The position numbers and the translations under genes were made by a program. Below, piece after piece: positions 1,532 through 13,359 of a stretch of 21,052 nucleotides of DNA. The notes beneath the pieces were generated by a model. It made no database searches. It saw nothing but the letters and a program-made list of their open reading frames with translations, and was not told the origin of the DNA. Source of the DNA: a virus; IMG/VR virus record IMGVR_UViG_3300037961_001850, positions 1-21,052 of that record. One strand, written 5' to 3'. Positions within the stretch are counted from its first letter, which is position 1. Every line of letters starts with the position of its first letter.

Positions 1532-2723
1532 TAGTAAATATAAAGCTTTATTTAATTCAGACGCTAGGTACTTTATAATAACTGGCGGTCGTGGCTCTGG
1601 AAAGTCTTTCGCTGTTACTGTATTCCTTACTCTTCTTACAATGACAGAAGGAATAAGAATACTTTTTACAAGATTTACTATGGTTTCGGCTCATTTGTCT
1701 ATAATACCAGAGTTTCTGGAGAAAATAAAACTTTTAGGATATACTAAGATATTTAACATTAATAAAGCTGAAGTATTAAATACAGCGAATAATTCAGAAA
1801 TACTATTCAGAGGTATTAAAACCTCAGCAGGAAATCAGACGGCTAGTCTTAAGTCTTTGCAAGGTATATCTACTTGGATTCTTGACGAAGCCGAAGAGCT
1901 AATAGACGAAAATATTTTCGATACTATAGACTTAAGTATAAGAGAGAAAGGAGTTCAAAATAGGATTATATTAGTACTTAATCCAGTCACTAAAGAGCAC
2001 TGGATATACGAGAGATTTTTTTTAGAAAGAGGAGTAGAAGCGGGATTCAACGGAGTTAAAGATAACGTCTGCTATATACATAGTACATATAAAGACAATA
2101 AAGAAAACCTATCAGATAGCTTTTTACAACGTATTAAAACTATTAAACAAAGAAATATAAAGAAATATAATCATACTATTTTAGGAGGTTGGCTAGACTC
2201 AGCAGAAGGAGTAGTCTTTACTAATTGGACAATAGGACAGTTTAATCCAGATAATTTACAAACAAGTTGCGGAATGGACTTTGGATTTTCTGTTGATCCT
2301 GACAGCTTAACAGAAGTAGCAATAGATAAAAAGAAACAAATAATATACTTAAAAGAGCATATATATAAAAACGGACTTAAGAGTCACGAATTAGCTAAGA
2401 TAGTTTTAGACAAAGTAGGAAATAAACTTATTATTGCTGATAGCTCAGAGCCTAGATTAATAGAAGATTTAAAACATTTAGGAGTAAATATAAGACCAGT
2501 TAAGAAAGGTACTATAGAAAGCGGCATAAGTCGTATGCAAGATTATCAATTAGTCGTAAGTCCAGAGTCTACTAATATAGCTAAAGAATTGAATAATTAT
2601 GTATATAGCGACAAGGGCAGTAAATTGTATGTAGATGCTTATAACCACGCTATAGACGGAATACGTTATAACGTAATATATCATTTAGACAATCCTAATT
2701 ATGGACGTTATGTAATTCAGTAG
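1521..2723 (+). CDS. terL: Terminase large subunit (TerL), probable CTG start
   Basis: TerL is the ATP-driven packaging motor and nuclease. The reading frame is open from 1518. There is no ATG, GTG or TTG before 1641, yet the Walker A motif GGRGSGKS lies at 1584-1607, upstream of that ATG, so the gene must begin earlier. CTG at 1521 gives a 400-residue product with about 13 residues before the conserved DARYFIITGG, a typical N-terminus. Numbered from CTG: Walker A 22-29; Walker B WILDEAEE 119-126; LVLNP coupling motif about 151-155; nuclease acids D253 (MDFGF), D307 (IIADSSEP), D372 and D379 (DAYNHAIDG). This matches the PBSX-type family (Terminase_3 plus C-terminal nuclease). It overlaps TerS by 11 bases. 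A +1 frameshift from TerS is an alternative. Its end overlaps the reverse-strand gene by 29 bases. Confidence 0.9.
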   Translation: MNLNSKYKALFNSDARYFIITGGRGSGKSFAVTVFLTLLTMTEGIRILFTRFTMVSAHLSIIPEFLEKIKLLGYTKIFNINKAEVLNTANNSEILFRGIKTSAGNQTASLKSLQGISTWILDEAEELIDENIFDTIDLSIREKGVQNRIILVLNPVTKEHWIYERFFLERGVEAGFNGVKDNVCYIHSTYKDNKENLSDSFLQRIKTIKQRNIKKYNHTILGGWLDSAEGVVFTNWTIGQFNPDNLQTSCGMDFGFSVDPDSLTEVAIDKKKQIIYLKEHIYKNGLKSHELAKIVLDKVGNKLIIADSSEPRLIEDLKHLGVNIRPVKKGTIESGISRMQDYQLVVSPESTNIAKELNNYVYSDKGSKLYVDAYNHAIDGIRYNVIYHLDNPNYGRYVIQ

Positions 2724-2868
2724 TCTTTTTAGGCTTTATAAATTTTAAGTAGCAACCAAAGGAGCAAAGGTCAATGCTATAATCAGGCTCAGCTTCTCCG
2801 CAGTCTATTCCTAATTTAGAGCCGCATACTTTACAATATCTATTTTTGTTTAATTTTATTTTATCCAT
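2695..2868 (-). CDS. Small Cys-rich (zinc-ribbon-like) protein on the reverse strand
   Basis: The 57-residue product has C12-x2-C15, C23, and C35-x3-C39 (YCKVCG ... LCSFGCYLKF), a layout expected for a small zinc-binding fold, followed by a basic stretch FIKPKK. I chose the start at 2868 rather than 2880 because its ATG overlaps the stop of the upstream reverse-strand gene (ATGGATAA), a typical coupled junction. The 3-prime end runs 29 bases into the end of terL, tail to tail. It should be co-transcribed with the 78-residue gene from the promoter at 3122-3152. Function unknown; a regulator or host-takeover factor is only a guess. Confidence 0.6.
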   Translation of the reverse strand: MDKIKLNKNRYCKVCGSKLGIDCGEAEPDYSIDLCSFGCYLKFIKPKKTTELHNVHN

Positions 2869-3097
2869 TTGGGTATGCATATTTTAATCTTTCTAATCTA
2901 AACTTAGGAGTTTCTCCTTCTATAGTATAATCTCCTATTATTTCGCAAATTAATTGTTCGTGTAAATCGCTTACACCTGAAAGCTCTAAGTCGAAATCTA
3001 TAAAAGCTTGTTTAACTTCATTTTGTAAAGAAGTTCTTAAGCTTCTCATATAGTGTCTGTATTCGTGTGCCCAAAAGTAAGTATTTGTATTTGTCAT
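2861..3097 (-). CDS. Unknown 78-residue protein, first gene of a reverse-strand cassette
   Basis: The frame could extend upstream to 3163, but those 22 residues would come from promoter-like DNA, so I take the ATG at 3097 (MTNTNTYFWAHEYRHYM). A homopolymer of A lies directly before the start, in line with Bacteroidetes leaders that lack a Shine-Dalgarno sequence. The protein is aromatic and basic at the start (HEYRHYMRSLR), helical in the middle, and has an acidic part (ISDY-like IIGDYTIEGE) before FRLERLKYAYPNG. I do not recognise a family. A strong host-type promoter upstream and opposite orientation to all neighbours mark it as an independently expressed unit, perhaps expressed early or as a moron. 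Confidence 0.6.
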   Translation of the reverse strand: MTNTNTYFWAHEYRHYMRSLRTSLQNEVKQAFIDFDLELSGVSDLHEQLICEIIGDYTIEGETPKFRLERLKYAYPNG

Positions 3098-3121
3098 TTT
3101 TTTTTGTTTTAAATTATGATA

Positions 3122-3152
3122 CAAATATACAGCTTTTTTTATAACTAACAAA
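3122..3152 (-). promoter_or_regulatory. Bacteroidetes-type promoter for the reverse-strand cassette
   Basis: Read on the reverse strand, TTTG (3149-3152) is followed after exactly 19 bases by TATATTTG (3122-3129). This is a full match to the Bacteroidetes housekeeping promoter, with -33 TTTG and -7 TAnnTTTG. The reverse-strand start codon lies at 3097, leaving about a 20-base leader. The match is the best of its kind I found in the window. Confidence 0.75.
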
Positions 3153-3186
3153 ATATTTAACAAAATAATTAAAAAGTTATTAACAA

Positions 3187-3307
3187 TTGTAAGGTTAATA
3201 AAAGAGATACTAGATATAAAGAGTCAATCCCTGTTTAGTTGTAAATTAAATTTTTTATTAATTTATTTTACTTGTTGTTTTCAATATTGACTATTTAACC
3301 TTTACAA
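3187..3307. repeat. Nested imperfect inverted repeat in the non-coding region
   Basis: The outer arms are TTGTAAGGTTAA (3187-3198) and TTAACCTTTACAA (3295-3307), complementary with one extra base. Inside them AGTCAAT (3222-3228) is complementary to ATTGACT (3286-3292). On the right the two arms are separated by only two bases; on the left by 23. Transcribed in either direction this could form a long lopsided hairpin. It may be an operator, part of an RNA, or a remnant; no function can be assigned. Confidence 0.4.
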
Positions 3308-3315
3308 AGTATAAC
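3287..3315 (+). promoter_or_regulatory. Possible promoter TTGACT-17-TATAAC reading into the tail operon
   Basis: TTGACT (3287-3292) and TATAAC (3310-3315) are separated by 17 bases and each match the enterobacterial sigma70 consensus at five of six positions. Bacteroidetes hosts normally use a different consensus, so the match may be accidental. If used, it would leave a leader of about 140 bases before the tail chaperone gene. TTGACT also forms part of an inverted-repeat arm. Confidence 0.25.
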
Positions 3316-3437
3316 CGCTGAGTTAATAATTATATAGATTAAAAACTTTATATTAGTACCTCTTTAAAGTGACAAAAACTTTAATAACCGTTACAAATAT
3401 AAAATAATAATTTTATTTTAAACTAAAAACAAAAAAT

Positions 3438-3452
3438 TTATATAATATAATA
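3438..3452 (+). promoter_or_regulatory. A/T motif TTATATAATATAATA, copy 2, just before the tail operon
   Basis: This is identical over 15 bases to 1232-1246. It ends 10 bases before the ATG of the tail chaperone gene, at the head of the long rightward structural operon. It could be a late-promoter element or a leader that helps translation start. The low sequence complexity keeps confidence down. Confidence 0.3.
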
Positions 3453-3462
3453 AGTAATTACT

Positions 3463-4074
3463 ATGAAGATAACAATAAACAATAAAGGCAAAAAAGAAAG
3501 TTTTGATTTAATTGAAAAGTGGGAAGACGTTACTTTAGAAAAGTGGCTAAAATTAATAGAGATAAAAACAGATAAAAAAGCTTTAGAGGCTATAGAAAAC
3601 ATATCTACTCTTTCTAATATTCCTAAAGATTTGATAAGACAGTTGTCTGTTTCGGCTGTAGCTGAAATAATGAAAAACATAAGTAAAATGCAAGTTGAGG
3701 CTTCTAGTAATTTAGTTAATATTATAGAAGTAGACGGAAGAGAATACGGATTTATTCCTAATTTAGATCATATTACTATCGGCGAATTTGCAGACATTGA
3801 AATGTTTATAAAAAACGGATTAGAGAAGCATATGCCTGAAATAATGGCTGTATTATATAGACCTGTTATTTCTAAAAAAAATGAGGCTTATACTATTATT
3901 GCTTATGACGGAGAAATTACTTTACGAGCCGAAGAGTTTAAAAAAATGAAAGCAGAGCAAGTACAATCCGCTCTAGTTTTTTTTTACAATTTAGGGAACG
4001 AATTGTTAAAGACTTCGCAGTTATATTTGATGGAGGAGGCGAAAAGACTATTGAAGAGCAACAAGACAGACTAG
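3463..4074 (+). CDS. Putative tail assembly chaperone, short form (gpG-like)
   Basis: The 203-residue product has an N-terminal part KWEDVTLEKWLKLIEI, a central block IIEVDGREYGFIPNLDHITIGEFADIEMFI and IMAVLYRPVI, and a C-terminal helix SALVFFYNLGNELLKTSQLYLMEEAKRLLK. I recognise this pattern from Bacteroidetes phages, where it precedes a frame-shifted partner, as lambda gpG precedes gpGT. Such chaperones hold the tape measure protein during tail assembly. It heads the rightward tail operon after the 310-base control region. A run of nine T at 3977-3985 lies inside codons 172-174 and appears to redirect some ribosomes into the -1 frame, giving the long form. The chaperone role is inferred from family pattern and gene architecture. 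Confidence 0.6.
   Translation: MKITINNKGKKESFDLIEKWEDVTLEKWLKLIEIKTDKKALEAIENISTLSNIPKDLIRQLSVSAVAEIMKNISKMQVEASSNLVNIIEVDGREYGFIPNLDHITIGEFADIEMFIKNGLEKHMPEIMAVLYRPVISKKNEAYTIIAYDGEITLRAEEFKKMKAEQVQSALVFFYNLGNELLKTSQLYLMEEAKRLLKSNKTD
3977..3985 (+). promoter_or_regulatory. Putative -1 frameshift site (run of nine T)
   Basis: In the chaperone frame the bases read GTT TTT TTT TAC. This contains T TTT TTT, a perfect slippery heptamer, at 3978-3984. A -1 slip enters the overlapping open frame that runs to the stop at 4263-4265 and encodes a conserved-looking extension. Nine T could also cause transcriptional slippage. I did not identify a clear downstream pseudoknot by eye. Confidence 0.55.
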
Positions 4075-4265
4075 AAGGAGAAAGCTTTAATGACCGCTGG
4101 AGTTGGTTTGGAGTTATGTATAGATTAACAAATGGAAACATAGTACATTTAGACACAGTATCGAAATTAAGTTTATTAGAGTGTTTAACTTGGCTAAGTT
4201 ATGAAACAGACTTAGAAGAAAGACATTCAGTACAATTAGAAAGTAAAAAAAATGGCAGTAGATAA
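3984..4265 (+). CDS. Tail assembly chaperone extension (gpT-like), reached by -1 frameshift
   Basis: The frame is open from 3909 and has no ATG before 4116, which would fall inside a conserved-looking block. The segment FNDRWSWFGVMYRLTNGNI, then DTVSKLSLLECLTWLSYETD, resembles the second half of the two-part tail protein in related phages (aromatic FNxRW, then L-x-x-C-L-x-x-L). I therefore read it as the extension of the upstream protein made by a -1 shift. The fused product would have 174 residues from the first frame plus 93 from the second, about 267 in all. The end overlaps the next gene by 14 bases. The exact slip point is inferred from the T run; a later slip cannot be excluded. Confidence 0.55.
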   Translation, partial: LQFRERIVKDFAVIFDGGGEKTIEEQQDRLEGESFNDRWSWFGVMYRLTNGNIVHLDTVSKLSLLECLTWLSYETDLEERHSVQLESKKNGSR

Positions 4266-4788
4266 TAAAACATATAACAACGCAATAAACACTCTTAAAA
4301 ATATAGGAGACAATCATTTACAGATTAAGACTACTACAAGCGGAGACATATACGAGGTTAATTTAGATAAAAACGAGTTGTTTCCTGTTATGCATATAAA
4401 TCCAGTGAATGTAACTACAGGGCAAAGCGAGTTAAATTTTAACTTTCAAATTTTTGTTATGGACTTAGTTAGCGAGGATAGTAACTGGACTCAAGCAAAT
4501 ATACAGTCAGCTAATAATCTTAGTAACGAGCAAGAAGTATTGAGCGAAACTATGTCAATTTGTACGGACATAATAGGAGCACTTAGACACGGAGTAATGC
4601 AAAGTATGCAAGGAGTAAACGACATAAATCAACCTATATACTTTTTAGACGGAGAGATGACTTTAGAGCCATTTAACGAAAGGTTTGATAATTTAGTTGC
4701 AGGATTTGTATTTACTGTAACTCTTACAACTATGAATGATTTTCAAACTTGTAATATACCTATGTTAAGCGTAGGAGCAGGAGAATGA
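4252..4788 (+). CDS. Putative tail completion/terminator-type structural protein
   Basis: The 178-residue protein carries the pattern I associate with a conserved Bacteroidetes phage virion protein: IYEVNLDKNELFPVMHINPV (about residues 33-52), FNFQIFVMDLV (about 64-74), EQEVLSETMSICTDIIGAL (about 93-111), and PFNERFDNLVAGFVFTVTL (about 139-157). A mixed alpha/beta fold with a long helix and a closing beta strand resembles tail terminator or neck proteins that cap the tail tube. The gene overlaps the end of the chaperone extension by 14 bases and is followed by a tiny overlapping frame. The exact place in the virion is inference. Confidence 0.5.
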   Translation: MAVDNKTYNNAINTLKNIGDNHLQIKTTTSGDIYEVNLDKNELFPVMHINPVNVTTGQSELNFNFQIFVMDLVSEDSNWTQANIQSANNLSNEQEVLSETMSICTDIIGALRHGVMQSMQGVNDINQPIYFLDGEMTLEPFNERFDNLVAGFVFTVTLTTMNDFQTCNIPMLSVGAGE

Positions 4789-5660: not shown

Positions 5661-6215
5661 ATGGATAAGGCTTTAAATAAATATTTTACAAAGTTCGCTC
5701 AGAAAGTAGTGCGAGATTCTTTAAAAAATTTAAAGAAAAAAAAAGGAGCTACAGCTTTATCAGACACTGTAAGAGCTGAAGTTAAAAAAGGAGCTAACGG
5801 TTACGAAGTAGATTTTTATATGGCAGATTATGGAGCTTTCTTAGACAAAGGAGTCTCAGGAAACAAACAAATTCAAGAGTATACAACTTATGACGGAAGA
5901 GTAGTAGAAAGTCCTTATAAGTTTAGATCAAAACAGCCGCCGCCTGAGCCTTTAAGTAAATGGATTAAGAAAAAAGGTATAAAACCTAAAGGATTAGGAA
6001 GAGGAAGAGATAAAAAAAGCGGAAGATTTATATCAAATTTAGCCTTTTTAATAGGAAGAAAAATAAAAAGAGACGGACTTAAAAGTTTATCTTTTTTTCA
6101 GAAACCTTTAGGCTTAGGACTTAAAAAATTTGGAAACAATATACTTAATATTTTAGCTGACGATATATCCGATAATATAAGAGTAGTACAAACTAAAATA
6201 AATAAAATACAATGA
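5661..6215 (+). CDS. Putative head-tail joining/minor tail protein (HK97 gp10-like)
   Basis: The 184-residue protein is very basic (many KKK and KKKG segments) with the block DYGAFLDKGVSG (about residues 56-67), then SPYKFRSKQPPPEPLSKWIKKKGIKP (about 83-108), DKKSGRFISNLAFLIGRKIKRDG (about 116-138), and SFFQKPL. I associate this series with the HK97 gp10-like neck/tail-joining group as seen in Bacteroidetes and marine phages. These proteins sit at the head-tail interface or help close the tail tube. The stop overlaps the next gene by four bases (6212-6215, ATGA), so translation is coupled. The family assignment is moderate. Confidence 0.5.
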   Translation: MDKALNKYFTKFAQKVVRDSLKNLKKKKGATALSDTVRAEVKKGANGYEVDFYMADYGAFLDKGVSGNKQIQEYTTYDGRVVESPYKFRSKQPPPEPLSKWIKKKGIKPKGLGRGRDKKSGRFISNLAFLIGRKIKRDGLKSLSFFQKPLGLGLKKFGNNILNILADDISDNIRVVQTKINKIQ

Positions 6216-11448: not shown

Positions 11449-13359
11449 ATGGCTAGAGAAGAGTTAATATTTTCGGTAAAATCAGATATAAAACAAGTCA
11501 CTAAAGAAGTTCAACAGTTTGAAAAATCTTTAGACTCAGTTACTAAAGAATATAACGAACTTGGGGAGCAAATTAATATACAAAATAACGTCATTAACGA
11601 CTTAGAAAAAAATCTAATTGAGTTAAAAGCTAAACAAGATGAAATTCCTAAAGGAGCTTTTTATAAAGGAATAGACAATTTAAACAAACAAATAGCAGAC
11701 ACTACTAAAGAATTAAAGCTAGAAAAAATAGGATTAAAAGAATTAAAACAGCAACAGTCTCAAGCTAGCAAAGAAGTAAAAAAGTTTACAGATGAACAGA
11801 AAGAGTCAAATAAAGCTTTAGAAGACGGAGTAGGAAACTTTCGTTTATTTGGAGTTTCTTTAAATGACGTTAGGGCTACTACAAAAAAAATAATACCTAC
11901 TATAAAATTAATGTTTAGAAGTATAACAGCTGGTATTATGAGCACAGGAATAGGAGCTTTACTTATAGCCTTTGGCTCTTTAGCTACTTATTTTACAAGT
12001 ACAAAAAAAGGAGCAGACGAATTACGAGTAATTTTTGCTAAACTGGGAGCGGCTGTTGACGTTATAAAAGACAGGATATCAGCATTTGGAGGAATTATTA
12101 AAAATTACTTTACAGGAAAAACTTCATTAAAAGAAGCTGTAAATGATACAAAAGAGGCTTTCTCTGGTATGGGCGAAGAGATAAATAAAGAAGTAAAAAT
12201 AATGGGTGAGCTAGAAAAGGCTACTCAAAGACTAAGAGATGCTGATAACGAATTTATGATTCAAAAGGCAGCAACTAGACAAGAAATAGAAAGAGCTCGA
12301 CTAATTGCAGAAGATGAAACTAAGTCCGCAGAAGAAAGACTTACAAATTTAAAAAAGGCTTTAGACTTAGAGAAAGAGACTACAGATCAAGAATTAAAAC
12401 TTGCAAGAGAAAGAGTAAGAATACAAGAGCAGCAAATGGAACAAAGCGAAAACTTAGCTGAAGACGAAGAGAAACTAGCTCAGTTAAAAGCTCAACTTAT
12501 TGATACAGAAACAGCTTCTTTAAAAATGAGAAGACGAGTAGTAACTGAAGTTAATGCTTTAGAAAGAGAAATAGCTGCAGAAAAAAAAGCAAGAGACGAA
12601 GAGGAGCAAGCTAGAATAGACGAAAAAAACGCTCAAGAACAGAAAGACAAAGACGATAAATTAAGAAGAGAAAAGGAAGCAAACGATGCACTACAAGCTT
12701 TGAAAGAAGAAAACTTTTTAGCAGCAATAGAAGACGAGAAAGAGAGAGCACTAGCTGAGCTTGAAATTCAGAAAAAAAAGGAAGAGGAGGAGCTAAAACA
12801 ATTTGACAATTTTACAGAGCTAAAAATTGAATTAGATAAAAAATATAAAAGAGCTAAAGACAAGCTTAACGAAGTAGATGTCAAAGACGAAAAATTAACT
12901 AATAAACAAAAATTAGATTTAGCTAAAAATACTTTTAACGATTTAGCTACTATAGCAGGTAAAGAAAGTAAAGCAGGGAAAGCCGCAGCAATAGCAGCAA
13001 CTACTATTAGTACGTTTCAAGGAGCTCAAGAATCTTATAAGTCTTTAGCAGGAATACCTGTAGTAGGGCCGGCACTAGGAGCGGCCGCAGCAGCTGCAGC
13101 TATAGTAAACGGATTTAAAACTATTCAAGCAATAAAATCAGAAAGCTCTTCAGCACCTAGTCAATCAGGAGGAGGAGGAGGCTCTATAGCTCAAGCTCAA
13201 ACTGTAGACGCTGCACCTACAGAAGCTTTAGCCGCTTCAGGAGCTTTTACTTTAGGAGGGGGCGAAGAGCCAGAGCCTGTTAAGGCTTTTGTTGTCGCTG
13301 ACGAAATGACTAATAGTCAAGAGCAGCTAGGAGAAATTAGAAGAAATTCTACTCTATAA
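11449..13359 (+). CDS. Tape measure protein
   Basis: The 636-residue protein has long helical, charged segments: residues about 14-125 and about 245-480 are heptad-like coiled coil rich in Glu, Lys and Gln. A hydrophobic segment lies at about 161-183 (AGIMSTGIGALLIAFGSLATYF), and an Ala-rich hydrophobic segment (PVVGPALGAAAAAAAIVNGF) at about 530-550 is followed by a five-Gly linker. The end (EPVKAFVVADEMTNSQ ... RRNSTL) matches the tail-end motif I know from Bacteroidetes tape measure proteins. This protein sets tail length and is ejected ahead of the DNA. At about 1.5 angstrom per residue it would specify a tail of about 95 nm. It follows the tail tip and fibre genes instead of preceding them. 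Confidence 0.85.
   Translation: MAREELIFSVKSDIKQVTKEVQQFEKSLDSVTKEYNELGEQINIQNNVINDLEKNLIELKAKQDEIPKGAFYKGIDNLNKQIADTTKELKLEKIGLKELKQQQSQASKEVKKFTDEQKESNKALEDGVGNFRLFGVSLNDVRATTKKIIPTIKLMFRSITAGIMSTGIGALLIAFGSLATYFTSTKKGADELRVIFAKLGAAVDVIKDRISAFGGIIKNYFTGKTSLKEAVNDTKEAFSGMGEEINKEVKIMGELEKATQRLRDADNEFMIQKAATRQEIERARLIAEDETKSAEERLTNLKKALDLEKETTDQELKLARERVRIQEQQMEQSENLAEDEEKLAQLKAQLIDTETASLKMRRRVVTEVNALEREIAAEKKARDEEEQARIDEKNAQEQKDKDDKLRREKEANDALQALKEENFLAAIEDEKERALAELEIQKKKEEEELKQFDNFTELKIELDKKYKRAKDKLNEVDVKDEKLTNKQKLDLAKNTFNDLATIAGKESKAGKAAAIAATTISTFQGAQESYKSLAGIPVVGPALGAAAAAAAIVNGFKTIQAIKSESSSAPSQSGGGGGSIAQAQTVDAAPTEALAASGAFTLGGGEEPEPVKAFVVADEMTNSQEQLGEIRRNSTL

Follow-up and report, generated by a model that had tools for sequence, protein, structure and literature searches.

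The DNA analysed here (the window; 21,052 nucleotides) comprises positions 1–21052 of a 28.4-kb virus record (IMGVR_UViG_3300037961_001850), probably derived from a marine flavobacterial phage, and carries terminase, portal, capsid, protease and tape-measure genes. Downstream of the terminase lies a pair of overlapping coding regions, termed G (frame 0) and T (−1 frame), whose coordinates and neighbors are listed in Table 1. Around a run of nine T's near its 3′ end, G reads CTA GTT TTT TTT TAC AAT TTA GGG. The original prediction, made from this DNA, that G contains a T run with a perfect T TTT TTT heptamer agrees with the sequence at the positions given in Table 1, as does its estimate of a fusion of about 267 residues, since 174 residues of G joined to 93 residues of T give a predicted product (GT) of 267 aa. 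It also had the second frame open from 3909 to 4265; the end is right, whereas the opening is wrong because of a TAA at 3939–3941, and the −1 frame is actually open from 3942 to its stop, TAA 4263–4265, and carries the block FNDRWSW. Nine-base runs are about as frequent in this AT-rich window as expected by chance (5 matches observed vs 5.5 expected). Therefore, the run by itself proves nothing, and its conservation is what matters.

Table 1. Coordinates of the G/T locus and of the neighboring genes in the window.
Feature	Position	Strand	Basis or remark
Terminase	1641–2723		ORF list
G/T locus	3463–4265	+	
Gene G, frame 0, 203 aa, short product, putative tail assembly chaperone	3463–4074	+	ORF list
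T9 run, candidate shift site, GTT TTT TTT TAC	3977–3985	+	T9 or longer in 404/404 junctions read
In-frame heptamer T_TTT_TTT	3978–3984	+	Inside the T9 run of G
T domain, −1 frame, 93 aa, predicted to be reached only via a shift	3984–4265	+	Codon-position pattern beyond the frame-0 stop
Double-coding stretch: C-terminus of G (frame 0) and start of T (−1)	3984–4074	+	Third-position excess lost
Next gene, 178 aa; start overlaps last 14 bases of T	4252–4788	+	ORF list
Tape-measure gene	11449–13359		Seven ORFs between G/T and the tape measure

The terminase large subunit ORF, when counted from ATG 1641, is missing the Walker A motif, and the same frame upstream reads LNLNSKYKALFNSDARYFIITGGRGSGKSF. 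This stretch is located between TAG 1515–1517 and ATG 1641, where ATG, GTG and TTG are absent and a CTG occurs at 1521. Translation of the terminase is likely to begin at CTG or another rare start, or to be coupled to the small-subunit gene ending at 1531. G is preceded by an AT-rich region of about 300 bases (3164–3462), which contains no listed plus-strand gene, borders two small minus-strand ORFs (2695–3163) on its other side and could include the structural operon's promoter. Homopolymers of A that are possible slippage sites occur in two other plus-strand ORFs, A10 at 763–772 in ORF 580–846 and A9 at 5736–5744 in ORF 5661–6215.

Related loci were collected from IMG/VR contigs, cultured phages and bacterial genomes whenever the protein encoded by either frame was similar, and the six-frame ORFs of one strand were all scanned with profile models of the G and T domains. 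In this comparison of both frames with relatives, a kind of check proposed with the original prediction, T was in −1 relative to G in 405 of the 406 loci carrying both domains, and at least nine consecutive T's were present at all 404 junctions read. The sole exception among the 406 loci, L096, has a frame break upstream within G. An in-frame fusion at the T run was absent from the 405 −1 loci and was needed by none of them. As the 406-locus set includes overlapping copies of some contigs, loci were clustered by protein identity. Clustering at 95% gave 183 lineages (171 with T9, 10 with T10 and 2 with T12), and looser clustering gave 87 lineages at 80% and 39 at 60%, with exceptions to the rule of nine or more T's at no level. 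The T9 and −1 arrangement persists down to 25–30% protein identity. Two copies, L096:1398–2079 and L204:2976–3700, carry a frame break or stop inside G with the junction intact, either a sequencing error or a decayed copy, and they look odd only because of these breaks upstream in G.

The same arrangement was found outside environmental contigs. The cultured Nonlabens (Persicivirga) phages P12024S and P12024L read CTT TTT TTT TAT CAT TTA GGG at the equivalent place, and three genome-borne copies (L408, L409 and L410) have T9. A protein-pattern scan of genomes matched a single Winogradskyella MAG, and profile searches in 400-genome samples yielded further candidates, G216 and G205 and then G776 and G1055. 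Of these, G776 (locus L412) failed when both domain models were applied and was dropped as a relative. From the Nonlabens phages and the copies in Winogradskyella and other Flavobacteriaceae, we infer that the hosts of this lineage are probably Flavobacteriia.

Nucleotide differences among relatives were sorted by codon position. In T beyond the frame-0 stop, they amounted to.217,.163 and.375 at −1 codon positions 1, 2 and 3, and in G upstream, in its own frame, to.215,.149 and.449. In the overlap the −1 positions gave.288,.205 and.265; the third-position excess is gone there, as expected of a stretch that codes in two frames. Judged by these patterns, the −1 frame is evolving as a protein. 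The claim that it has no usable start before FNDRWSW held up, as no ATG, GTG or TTG was found in the −1 frame of the window from 3942 to ATG 4116, which is its first ATG and is located inside the conserved block. An ordinary start for the second frame in relatives, named beforehand as the case that would speak against a shift, was sought and not found: of 321 loci, 295 had no start codon in the interval from the upstream stop to the run, and of 162 loci, 130 had none within 120 nt after the run. The strictly conserved residues of the second frame, LxFRxRI, begin at the T run. The codon-position pattern, the missing start and the position of LxFRxRI therefore indicate that T is produced by extending G.

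That T is instead a separate gene, translated from its own start or by re-initiation, is the reading adopted in the P12024S and P12024L records, and short proteins of the T domain beginning at internal starts have been deposited (phrog_38404, 55 aa). We regard it as very unlikely, as it is contradicted by the scarcity of starts on either side of the run, by the fact that ATG 4116 falls amid the conserved block and by conservation that begins at the run itself, and it leaves the conservation of the T run unexplained. It is scarcely credible that the offset stems from a decayed gene or from faulty sequencing or assembly, with a true run of T10 (or T7) within a single 267-aa ORF. Homopolymers are prone to errors, and distant relatives do carry both domains in one ORF, but the same −1 offset occurs in 405 of the 406 loci, which come from many independent samples, it is also seen in cultured phage genomes and in a copy carried by a bacterial genome on an assembly of 3.9 Mb, and both frames are under coding selection. 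Across the sequences compared, the −1 arrangement is the product of neither chance nor error, and a programmed shift of some kind almost certainly takes place at the T run.

The function of the two domains was examined by profile and structure searches. All 53 members of a diverse alignment of G matched phrog_32199, a family without functional annotation, and 13 of the 53 also weakly matched phrog_166 ('tail protein'). The AlphaFold2 model of G was confident (pLDDT 88.7), and the predicted fold matched other phage proteins without assigned function; weaker matches were to two proteins annotated as tail assembly chaperones, A0A8S5V8Z8 (E 0.015) and A0A8S5RU45 (E 0.16). T was predicted as a small helical domain with modest confidence. 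Solved structures searched with G and T, by sequence and by fold, gave nothing convincing, and no known tail assembly chaperone was matched by sequence or solved structure. Pfam and NCBIfam yielded chance-level matches only for both domains, and an Rfam scan of the window yielded none. Eight viral proteins of 226–267 aa in BFVD match both the G and T models, and a Flavobacteriales genome contains a continuous 245-aa ORF (L413:961–1695) with a weak G match, a clear T match and no T run. Distant relatives thus seem to encode the fusion directly, without a shift, from which the T9 lineage would differ by also making the short form. A tail-chaperone role for G/GT is plausible and more likely than not.

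The original prediction was of a probable −1 frameshift, perhaps by transcriptional slippage; a programmed shift stands, and slippage now appears to be the somewhat likelier mechanism. RNA polymerase would slip on the nine T's and add one extra U in part of the transcripts. Most messages would be translated in frame 0 into the 203-aa G, and some would continue in the −1 frame after the run, ordinary translation of the U-added transcripts giving ...LVFF-LQFRERIVKDF..., that is, the 267-aa GT. The G/GT pair would probably work like lambda gpG/gpGT, as a tail assembly chaperone made in two lengths at a fixed ratio. In vivo, the polymerase slips very efficiently where 9 A or T follow one another, and its RNA-DNA hybrid is 9–10 bp (PMC5009743); slippage of the T9 type is cited for mxiE (PMC3711429).

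A different mechanism, which we consider possible but hold with less conviction, is programmed −1 ribosomal frameshifting at T_TTT_TTT, with two tRNA-Phe re-pairing one base back; except for the site itself, this would be the lambda G/GT mechanism. To our knowledge, the phage G/GT pairs so far tested are ribosomal. The heptamer is in frame at every junction read, a consequence of runs of T9 or more in any phase; as any run of at least nine holds an in-frame T_TTT_TTT, both mechanisms fit every sequence. The features that bear on the choice are the length and phase of the run and its surroundings. T9 occurs in all three codon phases, mostly in phase 1, in phase 0 in L017 and L125 and in phase 2 in L410, and the minimum is nine in every phase, whereas 8 T's in phase 1, or 7 in phase 2, suffice for T_TTT_TTT. 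Thus, the run of L410 (GGT TTT TTT TTG) is nine although seven would be enough for the ribosome, and in L017 and L125 two T's were lost before the run (GTT to CGG) and two gained after it (TAC to TTT), leaving it at nine. Where the second Phe codon is TTC or has given way to TTG, the T run is always extended upstream to T10. The variant GTT TTT TTC TAC, which is silent in both frames and retains T_TTT_TTC, occurred in 0 of 78 clusters, while TTC makes up 18% of Phe codons in the same genes; the absence of such variants, except behind a pure T10, speaks against the ribosomal mechanism. Among 34 sites examined for stimulators, only 2 were preceded by a Shine-Dalgarno-like sequence, and the RNA downstream showed no fold (mean z +0.33, n = 34). 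Their absence counts against ribosomal shifting, as does the poor performance of U_UUU_UUU as a ribosomal shift site in E. coli; still, frameshifting in phage tail chaperones is widely conserved and of low level, about 30:1 in lambda, and at such a level a weak site could do without stimulators (PMC5009743).

T runs elsewhere in these phages were compared with an expectation from synonymous shuffling of 415 kb of their other coding sequence. The observed/expected ratio was 0.96 for T6, 0.66 for T7, 0.30 for T8 and 0.10 for runs of at least nine, and the avoidance was similar with (0.61) or without (0.54) T_TTT_TTT in frame. Other genes thus carry the in-frame heptamer freely within shorter runs, at least as often as they carry it out of frame, which speaks against ribosomal shifting. 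Avoidance that follows length and is equal in and out of phase is a signature of polymerase slippage, in transcription or replication, rather than of the ribosome, and replication slippage may be the cause of the avoidance of long T runs. In the coding parts of the fetched loci, runs of at least nine T were seen once vs 9.9 expected and runs of at least nine A 14 times vs 44.7, irrespective of codon phase. On the other side, the ninth T can be explained by the amino acids it helps to encode, Leu/Phe in the −1 frame or Tyr/Trp/Cys/Ser in frame 0, and the off-phase cases that argue for transcriptional slippage are few, phase 0 being two near-identical loci and phase 2 a single one. Of about 400 loci, 355 have a +1-frame stop codon 6 nt beyond the run, mostly TAG in AATTTAGG, so that a one-base loss at the run would end the protein at once. 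This stop was not counted as evidence because the bases of AATTTAGG are constrained in the other two frames too.

The locus resembles lambda gpG/gpGT in that overlapping frames, located among the structural genes of a tailed phage, specify both a short protein and a longer −1 fusion, in its size-conserved domains of low similarity and in a formal X_XXY_YYZ heptamer. As in lambda, the second domain lies in a shifted, overlapping frame without its own start, and the candidate heptamer is in the right phase. It differs from lambda in having an invariant T9 or longer run vs GGGAAAG, in its location directly downstream of the terminase, with about 7 kb separating it from the tape-measure gene instead of lying immediately upstream of that gene, in that sequence homology was not found, and probably in slipping at the RNA level. 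A wider set of frameshifted tail chaperones is that of Xu, Hendrix and Duda 2004, as cited in PMC5009743. Of the lambda G/GT arrangement initially proposed, the overlapping −1 frame without a start stands, and a search for homology found no sequence or solved-structure match. As the tape-measure gene does not adjoin, the locus was not placed in the lambda G/GT family.

Thermus dnaX and Shigella mxiE are cases of programmed transcriptional slippage at nine A or T. The G/T locus is like them in that a nine-base homopolymer is the sole conserved signal and codon phase is irrelevant, and in that one gene would give two products without an RNA-structure or Shine-Dalgarno stimulator. Slippage genes have about nine or more A/T whatever the codon phase, and here no phase (0, 1 or 2) shows fewer than nine. 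It is unlike them in being a phage structural gene with presumed Flavobacteriia hosts, and in that slippage is here predicted from sequence. The direct homologues are gp38 and gp39 of P12024S and P12024L (JQ823122, JQ823123), with the same T9 and the order terminase-G-T; they are recorded as two separate hypothetical genes, with the frameshift unannotated and gp39 starting from an internal ATG. In the open-access literature searched, neither the T9 site nor a phage tail chaperone made by slippage was reported.

Frameshifted tail chaperones are textbook cases of ribosomal recoding. A further, tentative reading is that a large phage lineage, probably all on Flavobacteriia, may make a G/GT tail-chaperone pair via polymerase slippage at an invariant T9. 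If this is true, the ratio of length variants in a tailed phage would be set by the host polymerase, not the ribosome. The invariant nine T's, the lack of stimulators and a length rule close to the size of the polymerase hybrid would make the lineage a clean natural test of a two-product design achieved via transcription. For annotation, gp38/gp39 of P12024S and P12024L and their counterparts on hundreds of environmental contigs would each be one gene with a programmed shift.
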